A stretch of DNA of 64,000 bases from Buxus sempervirens (Eukaryota > Streptophyta > Magnoliopsida > Buxales > Buxaceae), in the NCBI GenBank assembly GCA_947561395.2, contig OX387182.1, positions 41,967,949-42,031,948 on the forward strand. The letters are read 5' to 3'. The position numbers and the translations under genes are program-made. The notes beneath the pieces are model-generated. The model ran no database searches. It was not told where the DNA came from and was given only the letters and a program-made list of their open reading frames with translations. Below are positions 5,903 through 51,051 of the stretch, piece by piece. The first letter of the stretch is position 1; every line of letters begins with the position of its first letter.

Positions 5903-6112
5903 CTCTGTAACGCCCCGAACCCGGGTCAATGCAAAAACCAACATCCGACCCAAACTCAGTTCGCTACTGTAACAACCCGAATTCAGTCCATCAACCAAAT
6001 CCAAGATGTTACTGGCCCATATCAAATAAACATTAAGAATATACCAGACTAAAGAAATAAATGATCCATTCATTAATTAACTATCAGAGTACAGAACATG
6101 TATGTGCAGAAG

Positions 6113-8398
6113 TGTAAAACCCCGATATTTTCTAAGAATTATTTTTATTTATTATTTATGTGGACAAATAAACTTAAGGAGCTGTGTGTATATGTAGGAA
6201 TTTCGGTGGGCGAGCACACACCAAATCAAGGGTTTTCAAAAGTTCGTCGAGTGGCAAGGTAATTATGGAAGGTATAAATACTTAAGGAAAATTAGGTTTG
6301 TGGGTTTTTGGAATACTCGTATACCTTTGCTGAAGTCGATTGCGGCGATTGATTTAGATTTTGGGAGAGAAGAAGAACTGTTAGTTTTCCTCCTGCCGAT
6401 CTGTGTGTTCGAATCAAGTTTTTGAAAAGAGTTTTACTCTTGCGAACAGAGGATCAACCGGGTGTCGATAGCAAGCAGACGACCGACTATTGGCGACTGT
6501 TGGCGATCGATTGAGGGTTTTCAGATTCAAGCAGTTGCTGTTGCAAGGATTTAAGCGTGCAAGAGGTGAGTAGCATCGTTTTAAAAATAGGTTTTGGATT
6601 TGATTCATGAGTTTGGTCTTGATGCATATGTTTTCTGGAAAAAACAGTTCGAGCGTAAGTTTTTTTAGGATTGTTAGAGATAAATATAAAGGTGTTTAGA
6701 ATAATTTCAAAACTTGTTTAAACATCTTCTGGGGATAGTAGGAGACTAAGAAAATTGTTACAGACAGAAAAATTACAGTCAGTCGTGGAGATCTTGAATT
6801 AACAGAGACTTGAATATCGGAGGTAGCATCCGCCGGGTTGGCGCCTACCTAGCGCCAACTGGTTTGAGTCGGCGCAAGACCGAATTTTCTTACCGCCGAG
6901 CTCGCGCTCATCGCGCGCCTATCTCGCACCGAGCGGATTTCCTTAACGCCAAGCTCACGCTTATCTCGCGCCTAGTCTATTTTAGGTAAGCGCGACATGT
7001 AGTTTAACTATTGACTTATCGCTGACCTCGCGCCAAGCGCCAGAGGTCAGCGCAAGTCCCAAATCTTTGCTGAAATGTGAGATTTGACCAATCAAGCTAG
7101 ATTTTAGTACTTTGAGGGTTCAAACACTTAGCCAATGACTTGTTTAGAATTTTAGAAATACTGTTACCTGTTCAGTTACTCTGAGAATATTAAGTGGAAT
7201 TTCTAGAAATTCTTAGGAGCATCCAAGGTGAATTTTAGGGCTATCGGTAGGTGATGTTATTGTTCCTAACACTAGGAGTTCCTGATTTAGTTTCCCTTTG
7301 TTTATACACTGTACTTAAATGAGAATTTATTTAATCGGGTTTTACTTGATTGCAAGTTCTGAAATGTAATGTAAAGATTTCTCTTGGTGTGAGTAAATGG
7401 GTTTTATTACCAATGGTCATGTGTTGTGAATTTTGAGTAAATACTGAAGGTACATGAGGTACTGTTCTGGTCCAGAGGGACATCTGGTGAGCTGTGTTGA
7501 GTTATACATGATGTTGAATGTATTGTTTTATTGTGATGTCAGAGTTGAGATTTTACGATGGTTTGCTGTTTTGGTTTAGCTTGTCTTGGATCCATGCTTA
7601 AGCTTAGTAATGTAATGTTATTGTTGGTTGTTGTAATTGCATGGCATTGTGTGTTGTCACGACCAGTGTAGAGCAGCCAGAAACCTTGAGTAGGCCTAGT
7701 TGTCAATGCCGAAACCCGGGGAGTAGGCCAGCATTGGATGACGAAACCCTGAGTAGGCCGTCATTTCAGAGTTTCCGAAACCCTGAGTAGGCCGAAACTG
7801 TGTACATGGAGGTGTTGAGTGTCTACTTGGCATGTTTAATTTATCAACTTAACAATAGTCATGACATTGACCAATCGATGTGTTGTCAGTATTGAATTGA
7901 AATGTGATTGGAAACAATTATTGGTTTTGGTTTTAAACTTGGAGATTGTATTGGTTGCTTAATCATACTGGTTATTTATCGATGCATAATTTGAACTGTG
8001 TTAACTATTTTCTGCATGCATATGCTACTCGCTGAGATATTCGTATCTCATTTTTTTGTTTTTGTTTTTCAGATACTCGAGGTGAGGCGACTACTGGGGT
8101 AGATCCGACTGAGACATATAAGGAGGAAGATTACTATTACATTCCTTAGACCTATAGGTTATTTTGATTGAACTTTTGAATTAATTGAATTTTTGAGGTG
8201 TAATAAAATACACTGAGGTTGAACCATTTGATCTTAGCTAAGTTTGAATATTGAATTCTTAGATAAAATATGATTGTGCACTCTGATATGGTTTAGTTTA
8301 GCTGATTATCCAGGGATCACAAATGATTAAGATCCTTACCTAACACTCCGTGAGATGTGTTATATCTTTATTGAACAACACGGATCCGGGGCGTTACA
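6113..8398 (+). mobile_element. Solo LTR of a second gypsy-like family, inserted in element A 5' LTR
   Basis: The 2286-bp block begins TGTAAAACCCCGATATTTTC and ends GATCCGGGGCGTTACA. The flanks AGAAG (6108-6112) and GGAAG (8399-8403) are a TSD with one mismatch. A TATA-like TATAAATA lies at 6273-6280, about 160 bp into the LTR. A GC-rich block of GCGCC-type repeats lies at about 6830-7060, and a stem-loop array at about 7675-7800. It is related to the solo LTR 53833-57041. No coding sequence. Confidence 0.85.
7675..7800 (+). repeat. Array of four stem-loops with the shared core GAAACCCTGAGTAGGCC
   Basis: The core GAAACC(C/T)..GAGTAGGCC occurs four times in about 115 bp. Three copies are framed by different complementary arms: CAATGC/GCATTG (7704-7709 with 7731-7736), ATGACG/CGTCAT (7738-7743 with 7759-7764) and GTTTC/GAAAC (7771-7775 with 7794-7798). 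The array is downstream of the LTR TATA box, so it would be in the transcribed leader. Confidence 0.8.
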
Positions 8399-10193
8399 GG
8401 AAGTATGGTCTAAAATCCTCAAGGAAACTAATATAGTTAACCATCAAAATCAATATTAAAGTCTAGTAAAATAAAAGGGGTCACTAATCTTTCAACTCTC
8501 TAATACATCAAATCAAAATGAATAATAATCTGATAAAAAATAACTAAATCTATATCAATCCACAACCTCAAACAATATCCGAATAATAGTACTCCTCTGG
8601 CAAATAATCAGCTAGCTCTCCCTGGAAATCACTGCAATGATCCCCATCTCGCGTATCAGCTAAAAAATGAAATAAAGGTAGGGTAAGATACGAATATCCC
8701 AGTAGGTAACACATGCATGTTTAAACAGTTAATATAACTAAAATAATAGTTCATACACGATTAAGCAATCTTGACTAAACAGACTCGTATAATCATTCGT
8801 ATCGATCATGAATACAAAACAGTATAATAAACAGTTCTAATTATAAGTTTCAGCAAGTTCTATTATAGGAATCCAATATCAGAAATCAATAGCATAATCC
8901 ATACGTTACAAGGATGCACTAAACAGTCACATCCAACCTACCAATTACATGCCTCCAGCATGTATACAATAATAACATGTTCCTGTGATTTTAGTGTCAT
9001 TGTAGGACTCACAAAGATAGATAAACCTTTTGAGATGATTCTCGACCAATCACTATACCATCGTGCGGCTTAGGTGCAGTGCTACTAATGATACTCAAGC
9101 CCCATGCAGCGCAGCTTAGACAAGAGCCGTAGTCACTGACTTATTGCACACATACCCATCAAAATTGGCATGTAGCACCAGCATGTAGCACCAGAATCAA
9201 TACATGGAGATGGTCGCTTATCCACATGTACAAGGAATCACCAGCGACTCACCGGGGTGTCCCTCCAGACATAGGACCTTCCCAAACAAACCAACTTGCA
9301 AAGGAAGCGCGTTCGCACAAGGGAGAAACTCAACCCAAATGAAATATCCCTTAGCTATCTAGCCACAACTATGGATCCATAACCAGCTATGCCCACTAGA
9401 CTCCAAATATCCCTAAAGTCTAACAATTCTATAAGGGTTGGTGCCTAGCGGCATATAAAGAGTAAATCTGGCATTTCCTTCAATATTCAGGTTAACTGAG
9501 TTGAATTTATGATCTGAATTTTCTTTATGTATTTATCTGATTTATAGTGTAATTTAGAAAGGTTCTGGTAATCAAATAATAGGTCAAATCTTCCAAGTAC
9601 TAGATTTCACAGTTTCATACAAAGTTTGGCAACTAGTGTCCTAAATATCTCCCTAATTTATTTTTCTATAAAATAGGAAATTTGATAAATTTTTTTGGTC
9701 TTAAAACATCTTAATTAATCATTAAAATTGACTAAAAATAGTTTGGAATTGAATCAAGGTTTGAAATTACGAAATTCTGCATTTTCTGCACAGAGCGCCT
9801 AGGATCGCCCCAGCAATCTAAGGTAAACGGTAGTTCATTTTATGTTGCCGACGATAAGTCGTCTCGCGATCTCGGGCTGTAAAACCCTGAATTTTCCTTA
9901 AATAATAAATTAAATTAATAAATAATATTACTGAGATTTATAATTGATAGATATAATTTATTATTGTAGGGGATGATCTAATTAGTGGAGATCCAGAATT
10001 GGACGCAGATCTGACCGTGCGATCATGAGATATCGAAGTATGTATTCTGATTGGGCGTGTGTATGGAGTTTGGTGTATGTGAGATACATGGGATAAGTGA
10101 GTATAAGTATTAGTTTAATAACCTAAATTTATACTTCGTATTCTCGCTCGTATTGAATAGCCGCAAGCGATAGCCTTGAGCGAACGAGCAACC

Positions 10194-10214
10194 GAAGAAG
10201 AAGAAGAAGAAGAG
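10194..10214. repeat. (GAA)n microsatellite
   Basis: Six to seven GAA units in the LTR leader. Purine-rich GAA/GGA tracts recur at the equivalent place in the related LTRs (for example about 25410-25440 and 60057-60080). Confidence 0.8.
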
Positions 10215-10422
10215 GGAGAAGAAAAGCTTGGGTTTTTGAGTTCTTCGTCGTCCAGAGTGTTGCTGGGTGACAGAGAATCATTGTTGAAAGAAGAGAGGAA
10301 GAGGAACATTCGTTCAAGAGGTAGGTGACATCGTTTTCCTTCGTTTTTGGCTTTACATGTGATTAATCGACAAAAGTATGTTTTTATGATATATAATGAT
10401 GTATATATGTTGATAATCATGT

Positions 10423-10449
10423 TATATATATATATATATATATATATAT
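10423..10449. repeat. (TA)n microsatellite
   Basis: An uninterrupted run of about 13 TA units. Confidence 0.95.
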
Positions 10450-11257
10450 GTTAGAATGAGTTTAGACGAGAAAAATCATGTTTTGTAATTGATTCTGATT
10501 GTTTTCTAACCACCGCCGACCTCGACTGTGCTCGGCGATCGTCGGCGATCTTAGGCGCTTGTATTAAATTTCAGACCGCCGTAGACTGCTTGAAGACGTA
10601 TCGTCGGTGTTCGATTTTGAACTACCGCCGACCACAGACCGCCGGGGCGATCCTGAGCGATCCTAGGCGCTCTGTTCAGATTTTGCAGATTTTCATAATT
10701 TTACACCCTGATTCAATTCCAAATATTTTTAGACAATTTTAATGATTAAATAAGATGTTTTAAGACCAAAATAAACTATCTAATTCCCTGTTTTACAGAA
10801 AAATAAATTAGGAAGGTATTTAGGACATTAGTTGCCAAACTTTGAAAGAAATGGAGAAACCTAGTTTTTGGAAAACCTAACTTGGAACAGTGAAAGACTT
10901 GGCCCTTCTCTCCTTCCTTCTTCTTCTTCCTCAGTCGTTCTCGGTTGTTTCTTTCTTGCGACTGTCGAATACGAACGAGTATTCCAAAACGTATAAGGTT
11001 ATGGTAATAAACAAGTATTTATATCTCTTTGATCCCACGTAGCCCACCTACAAGTTTTCCTATGTACACTGCCCAATCAGAACACAACAACTTAAAATAC
11101 GAATCATACCTTGATAACTCATGATTGGACGATCGGATCTGTGTCCAACTCTGGATCTCCATTATTTATATTATCCCCTATATTAATAAAATATTTCCAT
11201 CAATTAAAATTCCCAAAGATATTATTTATTAATTTAAGGAAATTTTGGAGTTTTACA

Positions 11258-17818: not shown

Positions 17819-20771
17819 TGTAACGTCTCGGATCCGGTAGCTTTTTTTTTTCCTAACGGATCAAGGCATTACTTGAATGATACAGAGCAATTAATTACAT
17901 AAGCATAAAGAGAATAAGTAGTTTAGAGTGCACTAAGAAACTTCTCTTTATTTTATTATTATCCTCAAAATTCCATTACATCAAGTTCATCAAATATAAA
18001 GGATAACTATAGCTCACTATCTCTCAAACACTCAATTAGACCTCCTACTACTACTCCTAGAAAAGAAATAAACTCTTACCAATAACCTTTAAGTCTCTAA
18101 AACCTTCAAGCCTTCTATTCCGCAGCGTCTTCTCCAATGATACCTAAAACAAAACATTTGAAAACAAGGATGAGATATAAAATTTCAAGAAGTAGTAACA
18201 GCATGCTAAAAAACTAATAATGAATACCTTTGAATCATATGTATAAGATTACGGAAACCCTTTGGTAAAACCAAACAATCATGATAGCATTTAGCACAAG
18301 ACATTCATTCATAATATCATTAATAACATGAGGATTTATCATATAAGGCATCCAAGCAACAACATATATCATGCATATCAATATACATGGCTAGGTGTGT
18401 GCCAACTAGGTGGCTCAAATACAAGGCCAAATGTGGCTGTTGCGGCAAGATGATGAACACTGCCAAAATACTACATGGCTAGGTGCATGCCAACTAGATG
18501 GCTCAAATACAAGGCCAAATATGGCTGTTGCTGCAAGATGATGAGCACTGCCAAGATACATGGCTAGGTGTGTGCCAAGATACATGGCTCATATACAATG
18601 CCATAAAGGCTGTTGCGGCATGAAGCATGAACACGGTCGATAACGGCTCACGTGTATGTCATTACTTGGCTAAGTACACAACCGATAACGACTCACGTGT
18701 AGGCTAATAATTGGCTAACGATACCTGCAAGAATAAAAGATGAGCCTTCCACAAGATACAATAATTCACATCCAATCATATTCACCATATAGTGCAACAT
18801 GTTTAATATTTAATTCCCAACTCAATTTCATGCCACTATTACCTCAAATATCAACTCAGTAATCCAACATGTTCAAAAATCCATTCCATGAATAGAAAAC
18901 CCAAGGATATCAACCAATGTTGATGTAAGCACCGAACCATATGTTAGATATGAAAAGTACACCAAATCCATGCTAAAATATGTCAAAATCAAGAAATACA
19001 TTCATATTAGATATACAGAGGCCAAAAATCAATTAAGATGCAACTATTTAGTATGTCTAAAGCAAAAGTGATACCCATTCAAACCTCCAAATCCACCAAA
19101 GAACCAAAATCTCCTTTTTCACCAAAATGTACTCAAATTCTGTATGGAAATCCAAATAATGTTTAGACCAATGCAAACACTCTCAAAATACCCCAATCTA
19201 GTTGGTACATAAGTTGGAAATTCCCAGAAACAAGTTTAGAATCAAAAATAGGTCAAAGAGCAAATTCCTAAAAAAATCTGACAGTGGGTGCTCGAGTGTT
19301 GTCGGGTGTTCGAAGAAATTTCATCTCTGGGTTTGGTCGCTCGAGTTGGTGCTTGAGCGCGGTGTTGGGCATTCGGTCTAATCAATTTTCTAAGTTTCGG
19401 GTTTTGAAATTTTCTAAAAACATAGGCGGGGCGCTTGACATGGCGCTCGAGGGCCGTGCCAGGAGTTCCCATAAAACTGGAAAATTCCGAATTTTCTAAA
19501 TTTTGCAAATTTTCATTCTAAATTCAAATCACACCAAACCAACTCCCCAAATTACTTCTAAATTATGTAATATCATCCTTTAAACATGCTAGTTTATTTC
19601 AAACACAACGAGATATGAGTTTACAAGTATTCCTAATCAAATCCATACTTTCCTTTAAAACAAGATTAACAACTCTCATAAATTTCTAATCTAACAATAT
19701 TTAATCCATCAAGCATATCCAATTTCATCCAATCAATGCAATCAAAATATGATTTGGCGATTAATCCAGAAGACACGAAGTAATTTTAGAAGGGTTACTA
19801 TTTACCTCAAGAATGTGAAATCTCTCTTCTTCAATAAACATCAAGGTATAGCCGTTTTTCTGAAATTTTCGCACGGCTCTAAGGATCTCCAAATCAAATC
19901 TTCACCATTCAGATTGAAGAACTATCAGTCAAGAGAAAAAACTTCAAATTTGAGGCCGATCCAATAGTTAGATTGCTTTAGATCTCCGTTTGATGGTTGC
20001 TGGTGGGAATTTTCTACAACAACCCTTTTCTCTAAAGAGTGTCTTTATTCTTCTCCTTTCTCTTTCTATATTTTCCTCTATTTGAGAGCACAAATTTTCT
20101 CTCTATTTTCCACACGTTTGAAGATGTAGGAAACCCCAAATCTTCCCTAAAGCCTTCCTTTTATAGGCTCACCCAAATACAAGTTTTAATTAGATTAGGA
20201 AACCTTCTAATTAGGAGTCCTAATTCTATTTGGAAACTTTCTTATCTTGTCTCCTATTTCTAATTCCTCTTTAAGAATTCCATACAAAGAAACACCTAAT
20301 TTAATCTATTTTTGTGCTAATTAGTTTCCCTATTTTTAAATATTACTAAAACTCCTCATTTTCCCCAACTTAAGATTCCTAATTAACCATAATTACTAAT
20401 ATGCCCTTTTGTCATTTATTAAACTATAGATCTCACTTTTTATATTCAAATCAAAACTAAATTAGGTTAACTTAATTTCTTAAGCCTAATGATCATTAAT
20501 TAATTAATTTTTTATTTTTGCTAATTTGAAAATGACAAAAATACCCGTTTCTTTAATTTGGTCATATTTAACCATTAATTTTCTTCCAAAATTTCCAGAT
20601 TTAATATTGTCATTATTTTAATCAATTATGCACTTTGGATTGATGAGAAATTCCCCAAATCATTGTACTATATATTCAATTCAAATTTGTTTCAAATAAA
20701 ATCATTATCGTTACAAATATTAATATTTGATTTCTCTTTTTTATTTATTTATAAAAATTTGAGATCTCCCA
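17819..20771 (-). mobile_element. Solo LTR of a third gypsy-like family (minus orientation)
   Basis: 2953 bp with perfect TSD TAGCT (17814-17818 and 20772-20776). In element orientation it starts TGGGAGATCTC and ends GATCCGAGACGTTACA. The same family makes up the outer LTRs at 21601-30295 and 41376-57235 once their inserts are removed (about 2.96 and 3.2 kb). It contains an imperfect minisatellite (about 18380-18640) and a GC-rich motif block (about 19280-19460). No coding sequence. Confidence 0.85.
18380..18640 (-). repeat. Imperfect tandem repeat, about 100-bp units
   Basis: Three degenerate units share CATGGCTAGGTG, GGCTCAAATACAAGGCC and GGCTGTTGCGGCAAGATGATG. The same array, in the other orientation, is at 43585-43935 in the sister LTR, so it is a family feature. 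Confidence 0.8.
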
Positions 20772-20776
20772 TAGCT

Positions 20777-23896: not shown

Positions 23897-25051
23897 AATC
23901 CAATCATAGATATATGGATCATCGACAAACACAGCTAATACCAGTACATGTGCAAGTCACAAGTGAACTACAAGCACGGCCAAAATATAGCTTTCATATG
24001 CGAGTCACAAGTAACCTAAAATATTACCAATATAAGGCTCGTGTAAGTTGATGTCTCATTAAAGCACACGGTGGTAACCCAAATAAACCAATACCGAACA
24101 AACTCGGCTAAGACCAGGTCGAGGTAACACAACGGTCTGGATTACTGCCCTCGTCGAAAACATGACGGAATGCATACTAGGAAAAAACTAACATGTATAA
24201 CTTACCAGAAAATTTCATTTTACTTCCTAGCTAAGCTATGGATCCATACTAAGCACTGTCTGCTAGACACAACTCACAATCAAAAACATTTAATAACCTG
24301 ATAATGCATAAATCAATAATAACAAACCCCATACGAGGAGACACCAATGTGTTGAATAGTGTGTCTACAATCATCACCAAAATCTCGGTTGCAAACCAAC
24401 AGATATTTAAAATAACCAAAATCAGGTCTTTAAAACAAGATAAGTATGAAACCATGTCATCTTTACTAAAATATGCCAAATTCTTTGATTAATTATTAAA
24501 TTGTAATTTATTAGTGTGAATACTCCTAATTTACCCATATGGAAGTGTTAGGTTATTGGTCAAATCAGTATTTTATGATTTACTAAGATTCATCCCCTAG
24601 TTGGTTGTTATTCTAGATATTCACCAAAGAATACCCAAAGTTCCCCTTTTTAAGAACCTAAGGTGTCAAAATTTATTAACTTTGATGTTTATCCCTTCCA
24701 GAGGTAAATCTAGGTCTTTGGTGAAGTTTAGGAATAGGTGAAACTGCCCAAATTAGATCTAAATGGATTGTGACTTCTTTCTACTCATAACCTCTCCAAA
24801 CATTTCTTCTTTACAATCATCGTCTTAAATTACTATCCTTTAATCCAAATTTAATTCCGTCACTTCCTACATCTCACATTACCCTAATTACAGGTGTTAC
24901 AATCTTAAAATTCTAAAAACAAATCATTAAAAATTAGATTTGGGCTCGAATCCCAAAATCTGGAAATTCTGACATAGGTCACTCGAATAGGCGCTTGAGC
25001 GACCTGACAGGCATTGGAGAATTGGTTTCTGTTACAAATACACAGGCCTGT
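23897..25051 (-). repeat. Second piece of the split solo LTR 21601-30295
   Basis: Continues the third-family LTR between two insertions. It holds the GC-rich motif block around 24970-25010 (GCGCTTGAGCGACC). No gene. Confidence 0.75.
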
Positions 25052-27681
25052 TGTAAGACCCCGAATTTTCCCAAATATTAAAATAAAATAATAATTAATA
25101 TTCTTGAGGATTATTATAGATGGAAATAATTTATTATTGTAGAGGATATTGTTATTAGTGGAGATCAGGAGTTTAGCGCAGATCGGAGCGTCTGATCGCG
25201 AGTTATCGCGGTAAGATTAATATTTTAAAGTTGATGTATTTTAATTGAGCGAGTGTGTAGTGTTTAATGCGTATGTGTTGCGTGAGATCGTATGTATATA
25301 AATAGGTATAGTATTAACCCTAGCACATACGGTCGTCATAACTATTCGTATATTGCCTTGTACTCGCCAGCCTCAAGAGAGAACCCACGACCGAGAGCGA
25401 CCAAGGAAGAAGAAGAGGAAGAGGAAGGAGGGAGGGAGAACCAAGTTTCTCCTTGTTCAAAGGTCTGTGGCCTGCAACCGTGAAGAGGTGTGGGTATTTC
25501 TGTTTAGGAAGGAAGAGGAGAACGCACGATAAGAGGTAAGTAGCACAAGTTTTTACGTTCGTTTTGTGCTCTTGAGATTGATTGAATCGTTTGCATGTTT
25601 TTATGATGTATCTATATATCTTTAGTTTGTTAATCACCTTATATGTATGTTAGAATCACTTTAAATTGGAGAAATCGGATTTCGGAACACCTTTTGGACG
25701 TTTTTGGGAGACCGCGAAGCTCACTGTGCTAAGCGATCTTCGGCGCTCCCAGGCGCTCGTTGAAAAACTTTGACCGCTATCGAGCACTAACTGATTAGTC
25801 GTCGGCGATCAATTTTGAACTACCGCTGACCATAGACCGCTCAGGCGATCCTGAGCGCTCTAACCAGAAAATGCAATTTTTCGTATATTAAACCCCTGAT
25901 TCAATTCTAAATTATTTTTAACCAATTTTAACCTTTAAATAAGAAGTTTTAAAATCAAAATAAATTATCAAATACCCTGTTTTAGCAGAAAAATAAATAG
26001 GGAATTGTTTTAGGTAATTAGTTGCTTAACTTGATCTGAAATAAGAAATTCTAAGTTTAATGCAGATAAATCTCTATAAATTAGAGTAAGTAATTAAGAG
26101 ACATTAAATTATATATCAGTAACCAGATTTCTACAAATAAAGACTTTATATCAGAAACTCAACCCAGTTGAACCATCTTTGATAAATAGCAAGAACCATA
26201 TTATCCCTATACGTAAGTAAATAGAAAATATCTGATTACTCCTAAACTGCACCTCTAAATTGCTTTATAACTTCACATAACCTCGAAGATACTTCAATTG
26301 ACCCCACCACTACCTCTAATCACTCGAGTCATCTAATACTTTAATTATCCCATAATTAGACCCAGTTATTGTGACTACAGACTAATGAATTAATTGTTGA
26401 ATAAGGTTTGGATATATAGACTAATTGGGATCAAGTTGTTATGAATACTCAAAATATAATTTGGACTGTGGATTAGATGCCATGATGGCTATAAGAGATT
26501 TGTACTATCTACGGATGAGATTTGATACCTCCTGCGGGAGAGATGAGACTTCCTGTTGGGGGAGATGTGATCCGGTTTGGATTGCATCCCACAGGGGAGA
26601 TATGCGACCACCTGCGGGTGAGATGAGACCTCTTGTGGGAGAGATGTAATCCGGTTTGGATTGCATCCCACATGGGATATATGTAACCACTTGCGGGTGA
26701 GATGTAATCCGGTTTGGATTGAATCTCACAGGGGAGATATGTAACCACCTGCGGGTGAGATGAAACCTCCTGTTGGGGGAGATGTAATCCGGTTTGGATT
26801 GCATCCCACAGGGGAGATATGTAACCACCTGCGGGTGAGATGAAACCTCTTGTGGGGGTGATGTAATCACGATGTGATTGCATCCCACAAGAGAGATATA
26901 TGTGACCACCTGCGGGTGAGATGTAATGACTCCTGCGGGAGAGACCTCATGTAGGGTCGATGTGATTACTACGTGATTGCATCCTACATGGGAGAATGTT
27001 GATATCAGATTGTGAGATTCACTATTAATTATGAATGACATGATTTACATTTAAATAAGAAGAGTTTAATTAAACGGTTTAACTGTGACTGGATTTGAAT
27101 GACTCTAAATTAGAATATTTCAAGAACTAAATAAATATTGGTTTCGTATGGTGATTATTCGTTCTTATTATCGACCGTGACTACCCGATTGTTTTATCGT
27201 GCATGAATGATTACTTTTATATATAAACTGTTTCTAGCATGCATGTGTTACCTACTGAGATATTCGTATCTCATCCGACTTTATCTTATTTTTCAGCTGC
27301 TTCACGTGAAAGAGTCCTTGGGGTTGACACGAGGAGGAGTTGTAGATTACTGAGTTGAGGATCTTTCTTATTTCGTTTAGATCTTTCTTTTAGAGGTTGA
27401 TATAGATGTACCTTGATGGATATCTTATGATTTAATTGAAAATGAGAGAAAGAGTGTTAGAAAACCCATTTACCAGATTTATGAATTTATATTGATAAGT
27501 TAGTTTGATGGTTATATTTATCCACGCATATTGATGAAATTAATGTTTTAATTCTCCACACTCTGATAATTAATGGAATTAGTTGAATTTAAATGTCTGG
27601 TAATTAGTAGCTTTTGGCCAGTATCACTTCGGATTCGGGTTTGGTGCTTGTTTGGCATAGATCCGGGTTCGGGGCGTTACA
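25052..27681 (+). mobile_element. Solo LTR, Tekay-like (related to the LTRs of A and C)
   Basis: 2630 bp, starting TGTAAGACCCCGAATTTTCC and ending GGTTCGGGGCGTTACA, with perfect TSD CCTGT (25047-25051 and 27682-27686). A TATA-like TATAAATA lies at 25297-25304, followed by a GA-rich leader and a GC-rich block (about 25710-25860). It shares the TTATTATTGTAG and GAGATCAGGAGTTT segments with the solo LTR at 59698. It differs from the other Tekay-like LTRs in carrying a long hairpin array (26511-27000). Confidence 0.86.
26511..27000 (+). repeat. Hairpin minisatellite, about six units of 70-105 bp
   Basis: Units carry GATGTAATCCGGTTTGGATT and ACCACCTGCGGGTGAGATG. Each GATGTAATCC...GGATTGCATC forms a stem extended by outer arms. 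The stems change in pairs: TGTGGG/CCCACA (26634-26639, 26667-26672), CTCTTGTGGG/CCCACAAGAG (26847-26856, 26884-26893) and CATGTAGG/CCTACATG (26948-26955, 26983-26990). Small CACC-TGC-GGGTG hairpins between them alternate with CTCC-TGC-GGGAG. The long open frames that cross the array on the minus strand are products of the repeat, not genes. Confidence 0.85.
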
Positions 27682-27686
27682 CCTGT

Positions 27687-31305: not shown

Positions 31306-33643
31306 TGTAGACACCCCAAATTGCACTGTCAAATGATCAATAATCATCAAAAATCATTATCTCCTTGAAGGCCAGCACAGAATTTGAGAAAATGAGCTTT
31401 TTCCTTATATCCGGCAACTCAGGCCGGATACAGTGCTTTTCTTCGTATCCGATGGAACATACCGGATACAAGCAGACCTCAGTGTATTTGGCATCATATG
31501 CCGGATACATTAAGGCACTTGTGTATCCGGCCTGACATGCTGGATACACTAATTTTGCTCAAAATTAGGGTTTTCCGAGAGATTTCACTTTTTACCATCA
31601 TGTCCCTCATTAAATAAGGGGAAATCTCGGAAATAGCCTTAGGGTTAAGGTTGGTGGGCTATAGACATTATGTTGTGTCTACCATTCTCACTAACCCTAA
31701 CCCTAACCTTTGCCTATAAATAGGAGGCTCCTCCTTAAGCAAATGGCCATTAATTCTCTTGCCAATAATTCTTGCCAAGAATCTCTTCCAAGAAGAGCTC
31801 CGAGTGAAGAGGGAAACCACTGCGGAATTGCTTCTAGAACTCAGGTAAGCCTCAAACTTATCTTTTATTTTCTATTTTACATTTCTAGATCTAGATCTCT
31901 TCTTCTACCTTTCTGTAGAATAAGGCCTTTTTGTGTGTATGAAAATCCTTCTCCGGCTCAAAGTATCTCAAGACTCCCCCTAGCCGTAAAACGTGAAGGC
32001 GGGATTTAGGAGAAACGAGACTGGGGATTGACCCTAGTACTAGAACCTATTTAGAATAAAGCCTTTTGAATCTTTGAAGCCCGTTTCATATTTAAAGTAC
32101 CCCAAGATTATCTTGAAGAACCGTGTTTAACGGGGAGAGAGAACTAAGGGAAACAATAATGGAACGGAATCCTAGGTTGCTTTTAGAACCCTATTTTAAA
32201 TGAATGAGAATGCATGCTATGTTGTTATATTGTTCTTGAATGATTTTCACTTACACATGCATTGCACCCGTTTTGGCGGGATAGGCTCATATTTTGGGTT
32301 TATTACATTTATTGTGATAAATCTGAAATAAATGGCCTCAATCAATTCTGGAATGTTTTTAAAAGATTTGGATTCATCTTGCACGAATCACACACACTTT
32401 ATCACAGTTTTGAGTTGGTTTTGTTCAAAAAAGGCTTAACTTGACAGCAACTATACCCCTACTTCGGACACTCATAACTTCATCGTCCGGATGAATTTTT
32501 GAATGTTTTCAGAACCATGGGAAAGGTGAGGCTGTCTAGTTTATGCCTACCAAATTTCATTAATTTCTATCAAGCGGATTTTTGACACTGTCGAAGTTGA
32601 TTGGACAGTTCAGGTTTAAATACGGAACTTGTCACTTCGACGGAGCGCCATGTGTTCGTTTTAAATCCGATCCGAATGATTTTTGTTTCTGGGCACTCCT
32701 TTATGAGTTTATTTTCAAATCCAGTTGATTTCATAATTGTTTGACTCCATTTATATTATTGGTAACAGATTTACTCAGAGCTGTTCATCAGCACTTTTCT
32801 GGGTAAATCTGTGATCTCGGGGCCTGTTCGGGAGACTACCCAAGGCACATCCGAATGAATTTTTGTATGAGGCTAGTTTCATCTGAAAGTTGGCCATACA
32901 GACTTCAATCACACCAAATTTCGTGGATTTTTATGGAGTGGATTTTTCTAGATAATTTTCCAAACTTGCATGCTTATCACTTTTGATTTTCCCCAACAGC
33001 AACTTTAAAGAAGCATAACTCCTAGGATTTCAACTGGATTTACTTGAAATTTTGCATGAGTCTCTTATTTACCATGATCTTTCAAATGGATTTGGTTTGA
33101 TTCAATTTAAAATTGATTTTGAATGATTTCAAGACAAATGGCATTACTTTTCACCGAATTTTCCGGATTTAACTCAACTTGGTTTTGCGCAACTTTTGCT
33201 TTGGATTTCCATTTTTGTTGATATTCCAGAAATGATATTGACATAAAAAGGGATCTGAAATTCATTTGGATCTTCATGTGGAGATATCATATATTTGGCC
33301 TTTTTCAAGGTTTTTGATAATTTTTAGCAAGCTTTCTTATTTCTTTTTTTTTTTTTTTGCATGAACAAACACTTGGCAACCACCTTGTGTGGATGAATGG
33401 GGGTGCCGAATACCTTCTCTCGTTCATAATCTAATCCCCTTACCCATCTCTGGATTTGATTTTCAAGTAGGGTTATTTTTACCCTAGAATTTGCCTTTTA
33501 GCTATTTTTGCTTATCTTTAATCTTTTGGTGTCCATTCTCACCCAAAATTCTGAATGGTGGCGACTCTCCCAACTTTTTAAGTCGAGCCCCGTGTATTGA
33601 CGGAGGGATGATCATCTCCGGTGATTTTTTCCCGTGTCTCACA
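31306..33643 (+). mobile_element. Solo LTR (fifth family) inserted in element B gag
   Basis: 2338 bp, TGTAGACACCCC...GTGTCTCACA, with perfect TSD ACATC (31301-31305 and 33644-33648). A TATA box, TATAAATA, lies at 31715-31722, preceded by four regularly spaced palindromes (31408-31547). GGTGGCGACTC lies at 33557-33567, near the end. The end region is shared, in reverse, with the LTR at 62936-64000. Family position (Tat/Ogre-like?) is uncertain. Confidence 0.86.
31408..31547 (+). repeat. Four palindromes, period about 38 bp, upstream of the LTR TATA box
   Basis: TATCCGGC/GCCGGATA (31408-31430), GTATCCG/CGGATAC (31445-31469), GTATTTGGC/GCCGGATAC (31484-31508) and GTATCCGGC/GCTGGATAC (31523-31547). 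Every imperfect pair is a T-G pair, so all four can fold as RNA from the plus strand. They lie about 170-310 bp before the TATA box. Confidence 0.85.
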
Positions 33644-34062: not shown

Positions 34063-36483
34063 TGTAGACACCTGATTTTTGCACCCCTAAAATGAAGAAA
34101 AATGAAAAGTCAAACCCTGAGGGGGTAAAAAAATTGACCTTTTGATTCGAGCGAATTTGGCCATCAAACTTCATCTCATTGAAAAAATCATTTCGACACG
34201 GTTCTAACGCAATTGAGTTTGCTGGAATCGGAATCCGTATGAGGAAGTTATGAGTTGGTCAAACTTTTGGGGAGCGAAAATTTGACTTTTTGCTCGACCC
34301 CAATTCAGCTGCCAAACTTGATCCCAGTGGAAAGGTGGTTCCAAGCCGATTCCAACGACACCGAATTTGCTGAAATCGGACATCGGACGGAAAAGTTATG
34401 GGCAGTTGAAGTTTCAAAGAAAGCTGCCCATGTGGCAAAACAGCAGCAAAAAGCAAGATAAATGAATTAAATAAATAAAATAATCATTTAATAGAAATAT
34501 CTTTATTTTTAATAATATTTTAATAAAAGAATCTCGTTTTTATAAATATAATAATCATAAAATCGGAATAAAATCTTGCAAAAAATCAAATTGAATAAAG
34601 GTTTGAAATCCAGACATTTTAAAAACGTGCTAGACCGTATTTAAAATACGGGCGAGGCATGCCCGTATTTCAAATACGGGCAAGCTTCTAGAAGGGGACG
34701 CGTGTCGCTGTACGGCGGGACACACGTCCCGTACGACCGATTTTGCGAGATTTAGAAATGTGCGTTTTTCGTCCGTATTTGAATTATGGGCAAGGCACGC
34801 CCGTACTTGAAGTACGGGCAAGGCATGCCCGTACTTAAAATACGGGCACGACATTTTTGCCTATAAATAGAGAGGCCAGCCCCCCATTCGAAGAAGCCAT
34901 GACTTAAGGCCTCCTCCCTCTCCCTCTCCTACTAGCCACGTCCAAGCTCTGCCCAATTGCCGCCACCCCTAAACCCAAACCTTTTTTGTTCCCAAAATAC
35001 CCCTGTCTCACCCAAACCATGTCTAAACTCTTCTTTTTCATCCTTTGAACATCAAGAACCCACCAAACCTCTGCCAAAACCATTCTAAGAAATCCCGAAG
35101 GACGCGGAAGCGCTACCCAATTTACTCGGAGGAACCATAACCAGCAAATAATCCATTTGTAAGTATGTTAAGCTTTACAATATAACATTATCAATTTCAA
35201 TATCTCTTCCGGTTTCTTTTCTATATTTTGTTCTTGTTACCACTAATCCAATTGATGTTTTTGAAAATCATGAGAGGCTAATTTCAGGCAGATGATCATC
35301 ATAAAAAAAAGGGGGAAAGAAAGTGTCTAGAGGACACTTTAATCGGCTAATTCAATGATCCATTTTGTTCTTTAGCATGACTCCTTTGAAGATACATGAA
35401 TTTTTGTAATCTCCCTTTCTCTTTCATGAATGAGGGTTGTGGTTGGTTGAACAAATAAAAAAGGGAAAGAAGCCATGACCCAAATAACCTGAAAATAGAA
35501 GAAAAGTGGCTTTTTGAGCCTAATGAAGCCAATGCAGCATCTTGAAGGAACTCAGGAGCCCAACAGAGGTCGCCGAAGCACCCAAGAAGATAGCCGGAAC
35601 GGAACCCAAGCAGAACCGGCAGCAAAAATGCAAAATTAGCTGCGCCCGTAAACTCAGAGCTGTCCGGGCAGGCCCGTGTTTGTTTCACGGGCGAGCCAAA
35701 CCGGATTTCATTCACGGGCAAGGGCAGCCCGTATAACAAACACGGGCCAGTACAAATAATTTAAAAAATTCAATTTTCTCGACCCGGTTGGATTTGTTCC
35801 GACCCAAGTTGGTTTAACCCGACTCAAATTGGCATTTGGGCTATTTTTAGCCCATTTGTGGACTGTGGGCCTAGAAGGGCCCACCAAGACCCCCTTTGGC
35901 CCACTTGAGTGGCCCACATTTTGACTGGTCTATACCAGGCCTGTTTTCAATAAACAGGCCCAGGCCCCTTGACTCTGGCTAATGGGCTAAATCCAAGCCC
36001 AAATAAAAAAAATGTAAATAAATAAAGCTTAATAAGTAACCAAACGGGTTACCTAATAACCCAACTGGGCCCAAAGCCCAACCATGGCAGCCCACGGGTC
36101 TTCCAACGGGACCCAGGTCCGACCCACTCCACTAAATAAAAGATAAAATCAAAATAAAAGGGACCCACACCTTCAGAGGGCCCCGCCAGACCCAATAAAT
36201 AGCGTGCTGGTCTAGGAAGGGTGAGATTGACTCAAAAACCAGGGAGACCCGAGGGACCCGTCAAACCGACGGGGCGGGCCGGGGTGTCTTAGGGCTTCCC
36301 CGAACGTAACCGAGGACTTAGCTAGATCTCTAAAAAGCCGCAGACCAGACTTAGACTCGGATAGGGCAAACATCGTGTCTGCCTGCACCTCTCAGGCAGT
36401 GGCGACTCCGAATGTCCCGAGGCACACACAAAACCCTCCATGTGCGCCTCGTGTGCGATCTAGGCCAGATTTAGGTGCGCACA
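34063..36483 (+). mobile_element. Solo LTR (fifth family) inserted in element B between gag and protease
   Basis: 2421 bp, TGTAGACACCTGATTTTTGC...GGTGCGCACA, with flanks CAAGT (34058-34062) and CAAGC (36484-36488), a TSD with one mismatch. A TATA box, TATAAATA, lies at 34862-34869, with palindromes upstream (34635-34847) and two more downstream (35672-35692, 35727-35747). AGTGGCGACTCC lies at 36398-36409. It is richer in GC than its surroundings near its end. Confidence 0.86.
34635..34847 (+). repeat. Five palindromes upstream of the LTR TATA box
   Basis: CCGTATTT/AAATACGG (34635-34651), GCCCGTATTT/AAATACGGGC (34661-34681), an imperfect member at 34771-34791, GCCCGTACTT/AAGTACGGGC (34799-34819) and GCCCGTACTT/AAATACGGGC (34827-34847). 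The last three have a 28-bp period. CGTATTT/AAATACG against CGTACTT/AAGTACG is a paired change between arms. Confidence 0.87.
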
Positions 36484-43548: not shown

Positions 43549-43935
43549 GGCTGTATACTTATCCAAGTAATGGCATACAGCCATTATCGACCGTGTTCAT
43601 CCTTCATGTCGCAATAGCCTTTACGGCCTCGTATTTGAGCCAAGTATTAGCACACACCTAACCAAGTATTTGCAGTGCTCATCATCTTATCGCAACAGCC
43701 TTTATGGCCTTGTATTTGAGCCACATAGTTGGTACGTACCTAGCCAAGTATTGCCAGTGCTCATCATCTTGCCGCAATAGCCTTTATGGCCTTGTATTTG
43801 AGCCACCTAGTTGGCACGCACCTAGTCAAGTATTGGCAATGCTCATCATCTTGCCGTAACAGCCATGTTTGGCTTTGTATTTGAGTCACCTAGTTGGCAT
43901 ACACCTAGCCACGTATTGGCAGTGCTCATCACCTT
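43549..43935 (+). repeat. Minisatellite, about four 96-bp units, preceded by a perfect hairpin
   Basis: Units share AAGTATTGGCAGTGCTCATC, CTTGCCGCAA.AGCC and GGCCTTGTATTTGAGCCA. In front of them GGCTGTAT/ATACAGCC (43549-43556 with 43575-43582) forms a perfect 8-bp stem. The last unit is cut by the insertion of element C at 43940. Confidence 0.82.
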
Positions 43936-43940
43936 GCAGC

Positions 43941-46248
43941 TGTAAAACCCCGAATTTTCCTTAAATAATAAATTAAATTAGTAAATAATATTACTGAGGG
44001 TTATGATTGATGGGAATATTTTATTATTGTAGGGGGCGATCAGTTTAGTGGAGATCCAGAATTAAATGCAGATCTGATCGTCCGATCTTGAGATATCGAG
44101 GTATGTATTCTAATTGGGCGAGGTGTATAGGAGAGTTACATGGGAGATACATGGGATCAGAGGGTATAAATATGTATTAAAATAACCTAATCGTATTGTC
44201 GCTCGTAATACTCAGCCGCAAACGACGAGAGTTGAACGACCGAGAAGAGAAGAAAGAGAAGGAGGGAGGAAGACCAAGTAGACTTGCTCGGAGCATTGCT
44301 TTGCAACTAAAGAGAGATTTGGGGGTTGCCGTTCAGAGGAGAAGATGAGGAACGCGCGTATACGAGGTAGGTGACACCGTTTTGCTTTCGGAATCGGATT
44401 TTCCTTCGTTTACTCGCAAACGCATGTTTCTATTATATGTATTGGTGTATTTAGCTAGATAAGCATGTTATAAATACATTAGAATGAGTTTAGACGAGAA
44501 AAATCATGATTTAGAATAGTTTCTGCTCGATTTTGTATGACCGCCGACCTCGACTGTTCTCGGCGATCATCGGCGCTCTTCGGCGCTAGTAAAAAAAATT
44601 AGGACGCCGCAGACCGCGAGAAGACGGACCGCGGGCGCTCGAATTTGCACTACCGCCGACCTGAGACCGCCAGGGCGATCCTGAGCGATCCTAGGCGCTC
44701 TATGCAGAAAATCCAGATTTTCATAATTTCGAACCTAATTCAATTCTAAACTATTTTTAGACAATTTTAATGATTAATTAAGGTACTTTAAGACCAAAAT
44801 AAACTACCTAAATCCCTGTTTTACAGAAAAATAAATTAGGGAGATGTTTAGGACATTAGTTGCCAAGTTTCAAAGGAAATTGAGAAATGTGATTTTGGAA
44901 AAGCTAACTACACTTCGATTATCAAAACACCTCTAAATGACATTATAAATCAGAATACATTCTAAAGAGAATTCAGAATTCAGATGAACAAATATGGAAG
45001 TAAATGTACAGTTATAACCATTATATGCCGCTAGGCACCAACCCTTATAGAAATATGATACTTTAGGGAATTTTGGAGTCTAGTGGGCATAGCTGGTTAT
45101 GGATCCATAGTCGTAGCTAGATAGCTGAGGGATATGTCATTTGGGTTGAGTTACTCCTATATGCGACGCGCTTCCTTTGCAAGTTAGTTTGTCTGGGAAG
45201 GTCCTATGTCTGGAGGGACACCCCGGTGAGCCGCTGGTGATTCCCTGTACATGTGGATAAGCGACCATCTCCATGTATTGATTCTGGTGCTGCATGCTGG
45301 TGGTACATGCCAACTCTGATGGGTACGTGTGCAATAAGTCGGTGACTACGGCTCTTGTCTAAGCTGCGCTACATGGGGCTTGAGTATCATTAGTAGCATC
45401 GCTCCTAAGTCGCACGGTGGTATAGAAATTGGTTGAGAATCATCTCAAAAGGTTTATCTATCTTTGTGAGTCCTACAGTGACACTGAAACCGAAACACTT
45501 GGTATTATTATTGTATACATGCGGGAGGCATGTGATTGAGATATGGGTCGGATGTGACTGCTTAGTACATCCTGACAATGTGTGAACTATGTTACTGATT
45601 TGACTATTGTATTCTTCTATTAAAACTTGCTGGAATTCATCTTTAGAACTGTTTAGCATATTGTTTTGTATTCATGAATGATACGAATGATTATACGAGC
45701 CTGATTAGTCGATGTTGCCTAATCGTTCATGAACTGTTACTTTCCGTATATTAACTGTTTAATCATGCATGTGTTACCTACTGGGATATTCGTATCTCAC
45801 CCTACTGTTATTCCATTTTTTCAGCTGATACGCGAGAGGGGGATCTCTTAGACTTCCAGGGAGAGATAGCTGAGTATTCTCCGGAGGATTACTATTATCC
45901 AGATCTTGTCTGAGGTGGATTGTTGCTATAGACTTAGTACATTTGATTGGATTATTATTATTGTTGGGTTGATGTATTGAGAGATGAGAGAGATAGTACC
46001 CAGTTATTTTACCAGACTTTGATAGTACTATTTGATGGTCAAACTTTATGTTCATTTGAGGATTTTGAACTACACTTCCGCACATACTTGTTTCCGTAAC
46101 TCTGATAGTATAATTAGATAATGGATTTTGAATTCTTTGGTCTGGTATATTTTGATGTTGTTTATGATATGGGCCAGTAACACCTCGGATTTGGTTGTTG
46201 AACTAAATCGGGGTTGTTACAGTAGCGACCCGGGTTCGTGGCGTTACA
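43941..46248 (+). repeat. Element C 5' LTR
   Basis: 2308 bp, TGTAAAACCCCGAATTTTCC...CGTTACA. TATA-like TATAAATA lies at 44165-44172, then a GA-rich leader (about 44250-44350) and a GC-rich block (about 44540-44700) with GGCGATC/GGCGCTC motifs. TATGGATCCATA near 45100 is a perfect 12-bp palindrome. Open stretches inside are chance products. Confidence 0.95.
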
Positions 46249-46252
46249 GAGA

Positions 46253-46264
46253 TGGTATCAGAGC
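46253..46264 (+). other. Primer-binding site of element C
   Basis: TGGTATCAGAGC, four bases after the 5' LTR, is complementary to the 3' end of plant initiator-Met tRNA. This is the usual primer of Tekay/Del elements. Confidence 0.92.
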
Positions 46265-46375
46265 AATGGTCCTAACCTTAGAAATTAGCCAAACTTTAGG
46301 GGAATGGGATTGTGAGTACGCTAGATAGAACCCCTAGAATTATTGGATTCTAACAAGTGAAATTGTATTTTGCAG

Positions 46376-49300
46376 ATGGCTGGCAGGGGAAGACGTGCTA
46401 GAGTTGATCCTATTGAGGAGGAGCAGCAGGATGTTCCACCACCTCCACCACCTCCAAGGGGTGATATATGGACTGTTGTTAGCAGCTTGGCAGAGCTTCT
46501 TGCCAAGGAGAGAGAGGAGAGACTGAGCCAGCATGGCAATGGCGGAAATGGTGGCAATGGTCATGGAGAGGAGCCTGAACATGAGAGGGCCATACATACG
46601 ACCAAGGATCTTGAGCAGTTCAGGAAGTTGGATCCACCTATCTTTAGTGGACGACCAGATCCTATGGAGGCTGAGAGATGGCTGATGCGGGTGGAGTGGA
46701 TTTTTTAGGCCATGGGATGCCCGATGGACAGGAGAGTGCGGTTGGCAGCATTCTTATTTGAGGGAGAGGCGGTGCACTGGTGGACAGCCAGGAAGAGGCA
46801 GGATCCACAGGCTACATACATGACTTGGGATAGATTCCGGGAGGTCTTCTATGACCAGTACTTTTCTGAGGAAGTTCGGCTCAAGAAGGAGCGGGAATTT
46901 ATGGAGATTACACAGGGAGGCCAGACAGTGACTCAGTACGAGGCTAGATTTGCAGCCTTGTCCCGATTTGCAGCTCATATGACACAGGATGAGAGGAGGC
47001 TGACTTCACATTTTGAGCGGGGTCTGAAGCCCGAGATTAGGAGTATGCTGACAGTACTCCTGTGCACCGAACTAAAGGACGTGGTCCGTAGAGCCACTAG
47101 AGCTGAAAGTGACTTGGAGGCTAGAGCGAGCCAGAGCAGAGTTAGGCCGCCTATGAGGCCTGCAGATCAGAGAGGTTTCCTTAGTGGGAACAAGAGACCC
47201 AGAGACTGGACTAGGGCAGAGCCTGCAGGAGGACAGTATAGGGCAGTTCCGAGGGCATGTGTCTGTTGTGGCAGATACCATGTACCTAGACCATGTGTTG
47301 CAGCGCCGGGCACCTGCTACAGATGCGGGAAGGCAGGTCATAGGATCAAGGATTGTCGGTTCCCTTCTAGTTATCAGCCGTTAGCAGTGCCACGACCGGC
47401 ATTACCACCGCCAGAGACCGCGCCTGCTTTTCCACAAAGGCAGCAGTTTCAGCAGCCAGCTCAGAGAACATCGGTTGGGCAGAAGCCCCAGGGCAAAGGA
47501 CCAGTTCACAGAGGAGGCCAGAGGCAGGCAGTACCTGCTCAGCAGCCACAGCCAGCGAGGGTATATGCAGTGGATGCACATGAGGAGCGTGAGCTGATCG
47601 TATGGAGGATATTGAGGGTGATCCCGAGGCACCTGAGTTGATTGGAGGTATTCTTTTCATCTGTGGTAGATCAGCATGTGTTTTGTTTGATTCTGGTGCT
47701 TCCCATTCATTTATATCACCTGCTTGTGCACAACGGATTGGTTTGTCACCCACTGAGTTGGATACTGCATTGTCTGTGCACACACCTTTGGGAGAGTCTA
47801 CTCGAGTGGAGCATATGTATAGAGACTGTATGATTAGATTGGGTAGATTGGAGTTGTTTGGTGATTTGATTGCCTTAGACATCGGAGGTTTTGATGTGAT
47901 ATTGGGGATGGATTGGCTATGTAGACACCATGTGACATTGGATTGTTATGCGGGTACGGTGATAGTTAGAGGGCCAGATCAGACCACTCATTGTTTCAAA
48001 TGTGAGGGGTTGAAGTCGCGGATTGGTCTGGTAGCATCTGTGATAGCAGAGGAGCTTAGGAGTGACTCCCTTGTCATCTCCGATGTACCTGTTGTACAGG
48101 AGTTTGCGGATGTGTTTCCAGAGGATTTGCCTGGATTACCATCTGCTAGAGGAGTAGAGTTCAGGATACAGTTGATGCCTGGTACGGCTCCAGTTTCAAA
48201 ACCACCCTATAGGCTTGCAAAACCAGAACAGGAGGAACTTAAGAAGCAGTTAGATGAGCTCCAGGAATAAGGTTTCATCAAACCGAGCGTATCTCCGTGG
48301 GGCGCTCCAGTTCTATTTGTACAGAAGAAGGATGGGAGCATGAGGATGTGTATTGATTATAGGCAACTGAATGAAGTAACAATGAAGAACAAGTATCCGT
48401 TGCCTAGGATTGATGACCTGTTTGACCAGTTAGGAGGAGCATCTTGGTTCTCCAAGATATACTTGAGGTCAGGATATCATCAGTTGAGAGTGGCAGAGGA
48501 GGACATAGAGAAGACAGCTTTTCATACAGGCTATGGGCATTATGAGTTCTTGGTTATGCCTTTTGGGTTGATCAATGCCCCAGCTGTTTTCATGGACCTC
48601 ATGAACAGGATTTTTCATGCATACTTGGACAGTTTTGTAGTAGTGTTCATTGATGACATCCTAGTATATTCTAAGACCCGAGAAGCACATGTAGGGCATT
48701 TGAAGGCAGTATTGCACACTTTGAGAGACCACAAGTTGTATGGGAAATTTAGCAAATGTCAGTTTTGGCTAAGGCAAATTTCTTTCCTAGGTCATATTAT
48801 CTCAGGAGAGGGTATATCTGTGGACCCTGAGAAGGTTAAGGCAGTGGCAGAATGGCCTAGACTTACTACAGTAACAGAGGTCAGGAGTTTCCTTAGTATG
48901 GCAGGTTACTATAGGAGATTCATTGCAGGATTTTCGCGTATAGCTGCACCTTTGTCTAACCTAACCAAGAAGGCAGTGAAGTTCCTATGGGATGAAAAAT
49001 GTGAGCAGAGCTTCCAGGAATTGAAGCAGAGATTGACTACTGCACCAGTGTTGATTGTGCCATCTATGGATGAGGCATTTGCAGTGTATTGTGATGCTTC
49101 TAGGATAGGCTTGGGATGTGTATTGATGCAGCAGGGCAGAGTTATAGCGTATGCTTCGAGGTTATTGAGGCCACATGAGAGGAATTACCCTACCCACGAT
49201 CTAGAGCTAGCAGCCATAGTCTTTGCATTGAAGCTATGGAGGCATTACCTTTATGGAGTAGAGTTTGAGATCTTTTCTGATCATAAGAGTTTGAGATATC

Positions 49301-51000: not shown

Positions 51001-51039
51001 GAACCACAATGTAAATTTCGAGGACGAAATTTTTCTTTT

Positions 51040-51051
51040 AGGAGGGGAGGA
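51040..51051 (+). other. Polypurine tract of element C
   Basis: AGGAGGGGAGGA directly precedes the 3' LTR start at 51052 and is the same tract as in element A. Confidence 0.92.

Follow-up and report, generated by a model that had tools for sequence, protein, structure and literature searches.

In retroviruses, the packaging and dimerisation region lies between the splice donor and gag. As far as the accessible portions of the respective sources extend, Tat/Ogre plant LTR retrotransposons carry hypervariable tandem repeats in their 3'UTR (PMC7004042), and the BARE element possesses spliced and unspliced RNA pools of different fate, with splicing yielding a Gag-only RNA (PMC3735527). Template switching at hairpins has also been described, and it predicts multi-base compensatory change, according to the part of that source available (PMC8794818).

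We examined a window of 64,000 nucleotides from Buxus sempervirens (contig OX387182.1; all positions below are those of the window), in which tandem-repeat detection and folding placed a hairpin array, a palindromic minisatellite, at about 26515..26997 of the plus strand. This array unites the tandem arrays of plant LTR retrotransposons with hairpins showing compensatory change. Similar to the retroviral packaging and dimerisation region, it would comprise stable hairpins carried by unspliced RNA only; however, it is found inside an LTR and is missing from the sister LTRs. The intron of another plant Ty3/gypsy element is located between coding regions in the accessible part of its description, whereas the putative intron considered here is in the LTR. 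The Tat/Ogre repeats resemble the array as short tandem arrays in a plant LTR retrotransposon that vary between elements, but in that source, as far as available, they lie in the 3'UTR (PMC7004042), and the present array lies within the LTR itself, the element being probably of the chromovirus type, and has a long hairpin as its unit, with arms that covary. Template-switch hairpins, in the part of the report at hand, share stems with multi-base compensatory change (PMC8794818); unlike what would be expected of them, wobbles persist here, G-T pairs are far above A-C pairs, and a single switch was unsupported. BARE, another LTR retrotransposon of plants, likewise has both spliced and unspliced RNA, which are putative at our locus, yet it obtains a Gag-only RNA by splicing, and no hairpin array is named in the accessible portion of that paper (PMC3735527). 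Among titles and abstract openings of the open-licence literature, and in the available parts of PMC7004042 and PMC6317226, no hairpin array in an LTR was found described, which is no proof of absence; the same literature gave no report of an intron within an LTR, including Tekay.

An earlier note, made from the letters of the window, had assigned the array to a solo LTR, and this assignment was borne out. The LTR (TGTAAGACCC...GGGCGTTACA; 25052..27681, plus strand) runs from TGTAAG to GTTACA with the TG...CA ends, is flanked on both sides by the 5-bp target duplication CCTGT (25047-25051 and 27682-27686), and is without an internal region. Its TATA box (GTATATAAA; 25294..25302, plus strand) has counterparts at 44164, 51275, and 59941 and precedes the start of the array by 1221 nt. 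The solo LTR was compared by alignment with the LTRs at 43941, 51052, and 59698. Over its first kilobase, the match to the LTRs at 43941, 51052, 9878, and 59697 was 65-70%, with a value of about 66% for the pair that belongs to the two-LTR element at 43941-53350. Several LTRs in the window also matched a block around 27187-27299 at 78-85%. To characterize the affiliation, we drew on the two-LTR element at 43941-53350, which possesses a GCAGC duplication at either end and reading frames interrupted by stops. The frame pieces were recognized as Retrotrans_gag, RVP_2, RVT_1, RNaseH, Integrase_H2C2, and SH3_Tf2-1, and a chromodomain match reached 16.8 bits, under the cut-off of 25.1 bits. The Pol piece matched retroelement proteins at 57-67% identity (best 10 of 120 listed), with the named top rows from plants (Cucumis, Vitis, Tanacetum), and no match was found against viral contigs. 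The earlier note had called the array-bearing LTR Tekay-like; we take its element to be Ty3/gypsy and probably of the chromovirus type.

The array is organized in tandem periods of 79/80, 58, and 21 nt. Six quasi-palindromic units had been proposed, and we located six 25-nt cores of the GATGTAATCC/GGATTGCATC type, starting at 26564, 26643, 26701, 26781, 26860, and 26959. Each core is contained in a long plus-strand hairpin, namely unit 1 (26547..26597, core to 26588), unit 2 (26627..26676, core to 26667), unit 3 (26685..26734, core to 26725), unit 4 (26764..26814, core to 26805), unit 5 (26844..26893, core to 26884), and unit 6 (26943..26992, core to 26983). The long hairpin consists of an outer stem of about 9-10 pairs, a 5' bulge of about 4 bases, a core of 10-11 pairs, and a loop. 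The loop is not the constant one of the earlier description, as it reads GGTTT in units 1-4, GAT in unit 5, and TAC in unit 6. The apex is altered in both of the last two units (AATCAC GAT GTGATT in unit 5), and unit 6 has the outer stem ATGTAGG/CCTACAT, while the six cores differ little in the inner AAT/ATT region of the dyad.

Seven small hairpins with a TGCG loop accompany the long ones on the plus strand. Five are of the CACC type, comprising four CACC TGCG GGTG copies (26609..26620, 26746..26757, 26826..26837, and 26907..26918) and one CACT TGCG GGTG copy with a single T-G wobble (26688..26699), and two are CTCC TGCG GGAG hairpins, one at each array end (26529..26540 and 26930..26941). 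The order along the array is thus CTCC, five CACC-type, and CTCC, and not the alternation of the two types claimed before. The array has as its smallest brick a 21-mer of the form ACC-x-CC-TGYG-GG-y-GAGATG, which forms a small hairpin of its own, and a second 21-mer, identical to the CACC-type one at 16 of 21 positions, forms the left arm of the long hairpin in five of the six units. Unit 3 is without this second 21-mer; its register is shifted by the deletion, and the preceding hairpin 21-mer now serves as the left arm. In the right arm of unit 3, one C-to-T difference lengthens the pairing in the shifted register, and one C-to-A difference disrupts a core pair. The array is palindromic at two scales.

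We searched for relatives of the array within and beyond the window. A covariance model of the unit returned no believable match elsewhere in the window, the best being 55360-55423 (E = 0.051), which was rejected since 199 of 200 shuffles of it folded at least as well. This search agrees with the earlier statement that related LTRs are without the array. The further proposal that the array is confined to one lineage stands insofar as the sister LTRs in the window do not carry it, but a gain in this lineage is not separable from losses elsewhere. A pattern scan found no array relatives in viral and genome contig collections, which may omit records near the source genome; short pattern matches in one viral contig and one Ruegeria record were taken as chance. 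At E <= 1, Rfam yielded no match within the array, and outside the array only MIR5298 (24.8 bits against a gathering threshold of 70; E = 0.65). It was also noted that a minus-strand open frame of 179 aa covers the array (26505-27044), together with a second of 145 aa. No protein relative of the minus-strand array frame was found at E <= 1 among 148 candidates. The minus frames of the array contained 1/161, 0/160, and 5/160 stops and the plus frames 8/161, 12/160, and 8/160, and the open frame was read as a likely by-product of repeat composition and period.

The position of the array relative to sequences resembling splice sites was then considered. A donor-like GAG|GTAAGT occurs at 25533..25541 and an acceptor-like TTTTTCAG at 27289..27296, both on the plus strand and both of patterns common to the LTR copies. 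The pattern GAGGTA[AG]GT was found at five plus-strand places (10318, 25533, 44364, 51475, and 60170), every one in an LTR copy, and nowhere on the minus strand of the window. TTTTT[CT]AGCTG was likewise found at five places, all in LTR copies (27289, 45817, 52919, and 61642 on the plus strand and 8667 on the minus strand). Because donor-like and acceptor-like sites are common to related LTRs, occurring together in four LTR copies of three elements, we read the interval between them as a putative leader intron, which would span 25536..27296 (1761 nt, plus strand) in the solo LTR and 44367-45824, 51478-52926, and 60173-61649 in the other LTRs (1449-1477 nt from donor to acceptor). The array thus probably lies in an LTR leader intron. 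Donor conservation here rests on the pattern search, as the three-way LTR alignment shifts the donor (one of nine columns identical). The pattern AGGTAAGT is used for scoring GT donor sites. By simple match to it, the common donor tops all GT sites in four of four LTRs, with a tie at 43941. The fragmentary copy at 9875-10882 has the donor-like site only. The minus-strand copy has the acceptor-like site only, its donor region being missing or replaced as read from self-matches. A distant LTR ending near 57041 carries TTTTCAGCTG near its end and, by eye, GGTGAGT after its TATA box, outside its five best donor scores, and an LTR-like piece ending near 8398 carries TTTTTCAG.

Upstream of the acceptor-like site, we found a conserved hairpin, TGAGATA TTCG TATCTCA (27256..27273, plus strand), that is located 23 nt before the acceptor's last base. 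The most conserved 30-nt stretch of the three-way LTR alignment starts at 27244 (0.90 identical) and holds this hairpin; the runner-up scored 0.87 at 25901, and ungapped columns overall 0.45. The TGAGATA/TATCTCA pattern was encountered at seven places in the window, all in LTRs or LTR-like pieces, the others being 8031, 45780, 52882, 56788, and 61604 on the plus strand and 8703 on the minus strand, with wobbles in some and with the loop TTTG and one A-C pair at 61604. Its 3' arm holds CTCAY/CTTAC, which we take to be branch-point-like. From the end of the array to the acceptor's last base there are 299 nt. Four GAGATA motifs in the array (26597, 26734, 26814, and 26893) could pair with the TATCTC of this hairpin, although chance is likely because the four motifs are copies of one.

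Since the array is inside the putative intron, spliced RNA would lack it, which would make a role in translating spliced RNA unlikely and would leave a role limited to unspliced RNA. The earlier suggestion that the array is present in element RNA is in keeping with its place downstream of the TATA box, but, if the intron is real, would hold for the unspliced RNA alone.

We assessed the folding strength of the array against dinucleotide shuffles. The plus-strand RNA reached -216 kcal/mol, compared with -157 for the shuffles (z = -10.3), the minus-strand RNA had a z of -5.7, and the array as DNA a z of -7.9; none of 100 shuffles was as good in any of the three. A fold survey was conducted as 262 jobs, consisting of 130 non-overlapping 490-nt segments over bases 1-63700 on both strands and the exact array on both strands, with z taken from 12 shuffles per job and a pooled standard deviation. 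The plus strand of the array ranked top of the 262 (z = -10.65) and its minus strand sixth (z = -6.15). The next places were at 31361 (-9.3 / -8.9) and 34301 (-5.9 / -7.7), with strands more even than in the array. The sense strand also folds better than the minus strand in all six units. When the outer arms were examined alone (17 nt per side, Watson-Crick local alignment, 1000 shuffles), they exceeded the shuffles in unit 5 (1/1000 as good) and unit 6 (23/1000), and no excess was seen in units 1-4 (320, 141, 619, and 257 of 1000 as good, respectively). The core is the firm part of the structure in units 1-4.

Paired change was counted in a hand alignment of the six units over 20 pairs (120 cells), which was used for the main counts because MAFFT misplaces the additional T found in units 1 and 4. 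Among the 120 cells, 116 were paired (96 Watson-Crick and 20 G-T), and the four unpaired cells were A-C, A-G, and G-A (unit 3) and T-T (unit 2). Both sides had changed in 4 of the 20 pairs. The first of the outer pairs occurs as G-C or A-T and the second as C-G, T-A, or A-T, with T-G in unit 3 and T-T in unit 2; two adjacent apical pairs are doubly changed in common in units 5 and 6. The specific replacements reported earlier were recovered, with the inner AATCC/GGATT becoming AATCAC/GTGATT in unit 5 (GATTAC/GTGATT with wobbles in unit 6) and the outer TGTGGG/CCCACA of unit 5 becoming TGTAGG/CCTACA in unit 6.

These counts were compared with a neutral simulation on a neighbour-joining unit tree with a paired consensus root (20000 runs; simulated mean pairing 82%). 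The observed pairing was reached in 2 runs, the observed number of double-changed pairs in 168, and both together in none. Without the apical block, the corresponding numbers were 288, 1468, and 23; without the apex and unit 3, 36, 565, and 1; with units 2, 4, 5, and 6 only and without the apex, 43, 746, and 0; and without unit 3 alone, 2, 54, and 0 (all of 20000). When rate and transition bias were varied over six settings, 0 of 4000 runs at each setting gave both together, and double change alone came up in 33 to 833 of 4000. The MAFFT alignment paired 112 of 120 cells, or 93.3% compared with 86.9% when shuffled (0/500 as high), and its shuffles equaled the covariation score in 0/500, the double-changed pairs in 7/500, and the further pair types in 35/500. 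Sliding the partner by 1-3 columns in this alignment lowered pairing to 35-50%, a control inflated by the stem having been defined from these very sequences. Both stem and tree came from the same six units to which the tests were then applied. Considered over its full length, the array has retained more arm pairing than drift would permit, and a change of the arms together beyond drift is supported within this one array. The covariation proposed in the earlier note is thus upheld inside the array, but kept structure and palindrome copying are not cleanly separated with six units at one locus.

The imperfect pairs showed a pronounced asymmetry, with 20 G-T cells compared to 1 A-C cell, or eight columns compared to one, and the sole A-C cell was found in unit 3, the register-shifted unit. 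The equal T-G and A-C mismatches that the earlier note had set against its own reading were therefore absent. The G+T share of the array (0.569, or 56.9%) favours G-T by itself, and a sign test of the 8 columns against 1 gave a one-sided value of about 0.02 by hand and about 0.1 when allowing for this share. Between the LTRs at either end of the element at 43941-53350 there are 21 differences (14 transitions, 5 transversions, and 2 undetermined), and the transitions, polarised with other LTRs, comprised 7 G-T-making and 7 A-C-making changes, so that no strand bias was seen in these small numbers. The excess among the imperfect pairs suggests a fit to sense RNA, with few independent events.

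As an explanation, we tentatively prefer one that seems possible, if somewhat short of probable: a retrotransposon minisatellite was kept paired in unspliced sense RNA. The minisatellite would have arisen inside the LTR of a Ty3/gypsy element, where a 21-nt hairpin brick may have been tandemly repeated and then joined to a palindromic core, and slippage or unequal exchange may then have amplified the 79-80-nt unit. As long as the LTR lineage stayed mobile, selection would have held the arms complementary in sense RNA, with G-U pairs tolerated, A-C mismatches scarcely so, and some pairs altered on both sides. The array, being between the donor-like and acceptor-like sites, would occur only in unspliced RNA, and its stable hairpin row could influence how the leader intron is spliced, or could tag the genomic RNA or bring about its dimerisation. 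Such maintenance fits most of the observations, with few independent events. Against it stand the single locus, the six units with their few independent events, and the double change that is not rare alone under drift without the apex (1468/20000). The apical change affects two pairs together with the loop, and such clustering may reflect a single mutational step. The array is not essential because related LTRs in the window are without it, and selection through the element is no longer possible on this copy because it is a solo LTR. As the outer arms rose above shuffles in units 5 and 6 only, we rated maintenance in sense RNA slightly lower, and both a drifted relic and palindrome copying slightly higher. 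The main rival is palindrome-directed copying without function, in which template switching would rewrite one arm from the other and the array would have grown likewise; we regard it as doubtful, though to be taken seriously. Its mechanism is a described one that predicts compensatory change over several bases, in the accessible part of that work (PMC8794818), the two scales of palindromy accord with it, and the apex change struck two pairs and the loop together. However, all six units retain one T-G pair in the core, and further wobbles have lasted where thorough copying would lead to Watson-Crick pairs, which speaks against copying having run through entire palindromes, and the 20 G-T cells to 1 A-C are not predicted by it. 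When the 30 ordered unit pairs were searched by brute force for a single exact reverse-complement tract of 6-25 nt, such a copy accounted for at most 4 differences, and the lowest null counts, 5 and 7 of 200, were unremarkable given 30 comparisons; no footprint of a single switch between units beyond the null was found by this search, which is low-powered for two-step corrections.

That the units are drifted copies of one ancestral palindrome, the paired changes reflecting chance and one clustered event, appears unlikely. There are six units only, at least two double-changed pairs alone arose often enough in the simulations without the apex, and the outer arms of units 1-4 were no better than shuffles alone, but pairing and double change occurred jointly in 23 of 20000 runs without the apex and none with it, and pairing alone in 288 and 2, respectively. 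Boxes in plant LTR promoters typically show dyad symmetry and occur in tandem, and the BI and BII boxes of Tnt1 are reportedly tandem or palindromic boxes in a plant LTR promoter. A DNA-level control element with repeated dyads bound by dimeric regulators would share these features and the nearly invariant AAT/ATT part; we nevertheless consider it improbable, as the array begins well over a kilobase downstream of the TATA box, the dyad apex changes, and an excess of G-T over A-C would not be expected from DNA binding. Returning to the maintenance of pairing in sense RNA, a more specific form of it is very improbable in our estimation, namely that a Ty3/gypsy lineage gained a covarying hairpin row in an LTR intron that would mark unspliced genomic RNA for dimerisation, packaging, or intron retention. 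We give just as slim a chance to the analogy that goes with it, in which the row would be a counterpart of the retroviral packaging region that was derived from a minisatellite and is situated near the acceptor hairpin common to the LTR copies of the window. If the pairing was selected, the array would show how a retrotransposon made a series of RNA structures out of a minisatellite, and the stages could still be followed within it. If copying was responsible, the array would be a compact natural case of self-maintaining palindromes and a caution against taking covariation within tandem palindromes to prove function. In both cases, the acceptor hairpin and the putative LTR intron form a testable frame for the possible production of two RNA kinds from long LTRs.

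Several other features of the window were recorded. The segments at 31361-31850 and 34301-34850 fold strongly and contain inverted repeats with 22-50-nt arms that are 75-91% complementary in the pairs listed, and the arms at 34301-34850 repeat a palindrome of the CCGTATTT..AAATACGG kind. Self-matches suggest that the LTR of a minus-strand element at 5906-11237 is broken up by pieces of other LTR copies, including the plus-strand fragment at 9875-10882 and the more distant piece ending near 8398. Tandem arrays with an 82-88-nt unit were found in opposite orientations at 18379-18634 and 43610-43937, and both adjoin sequences that match each other (18383-20774 / 43833-41373).
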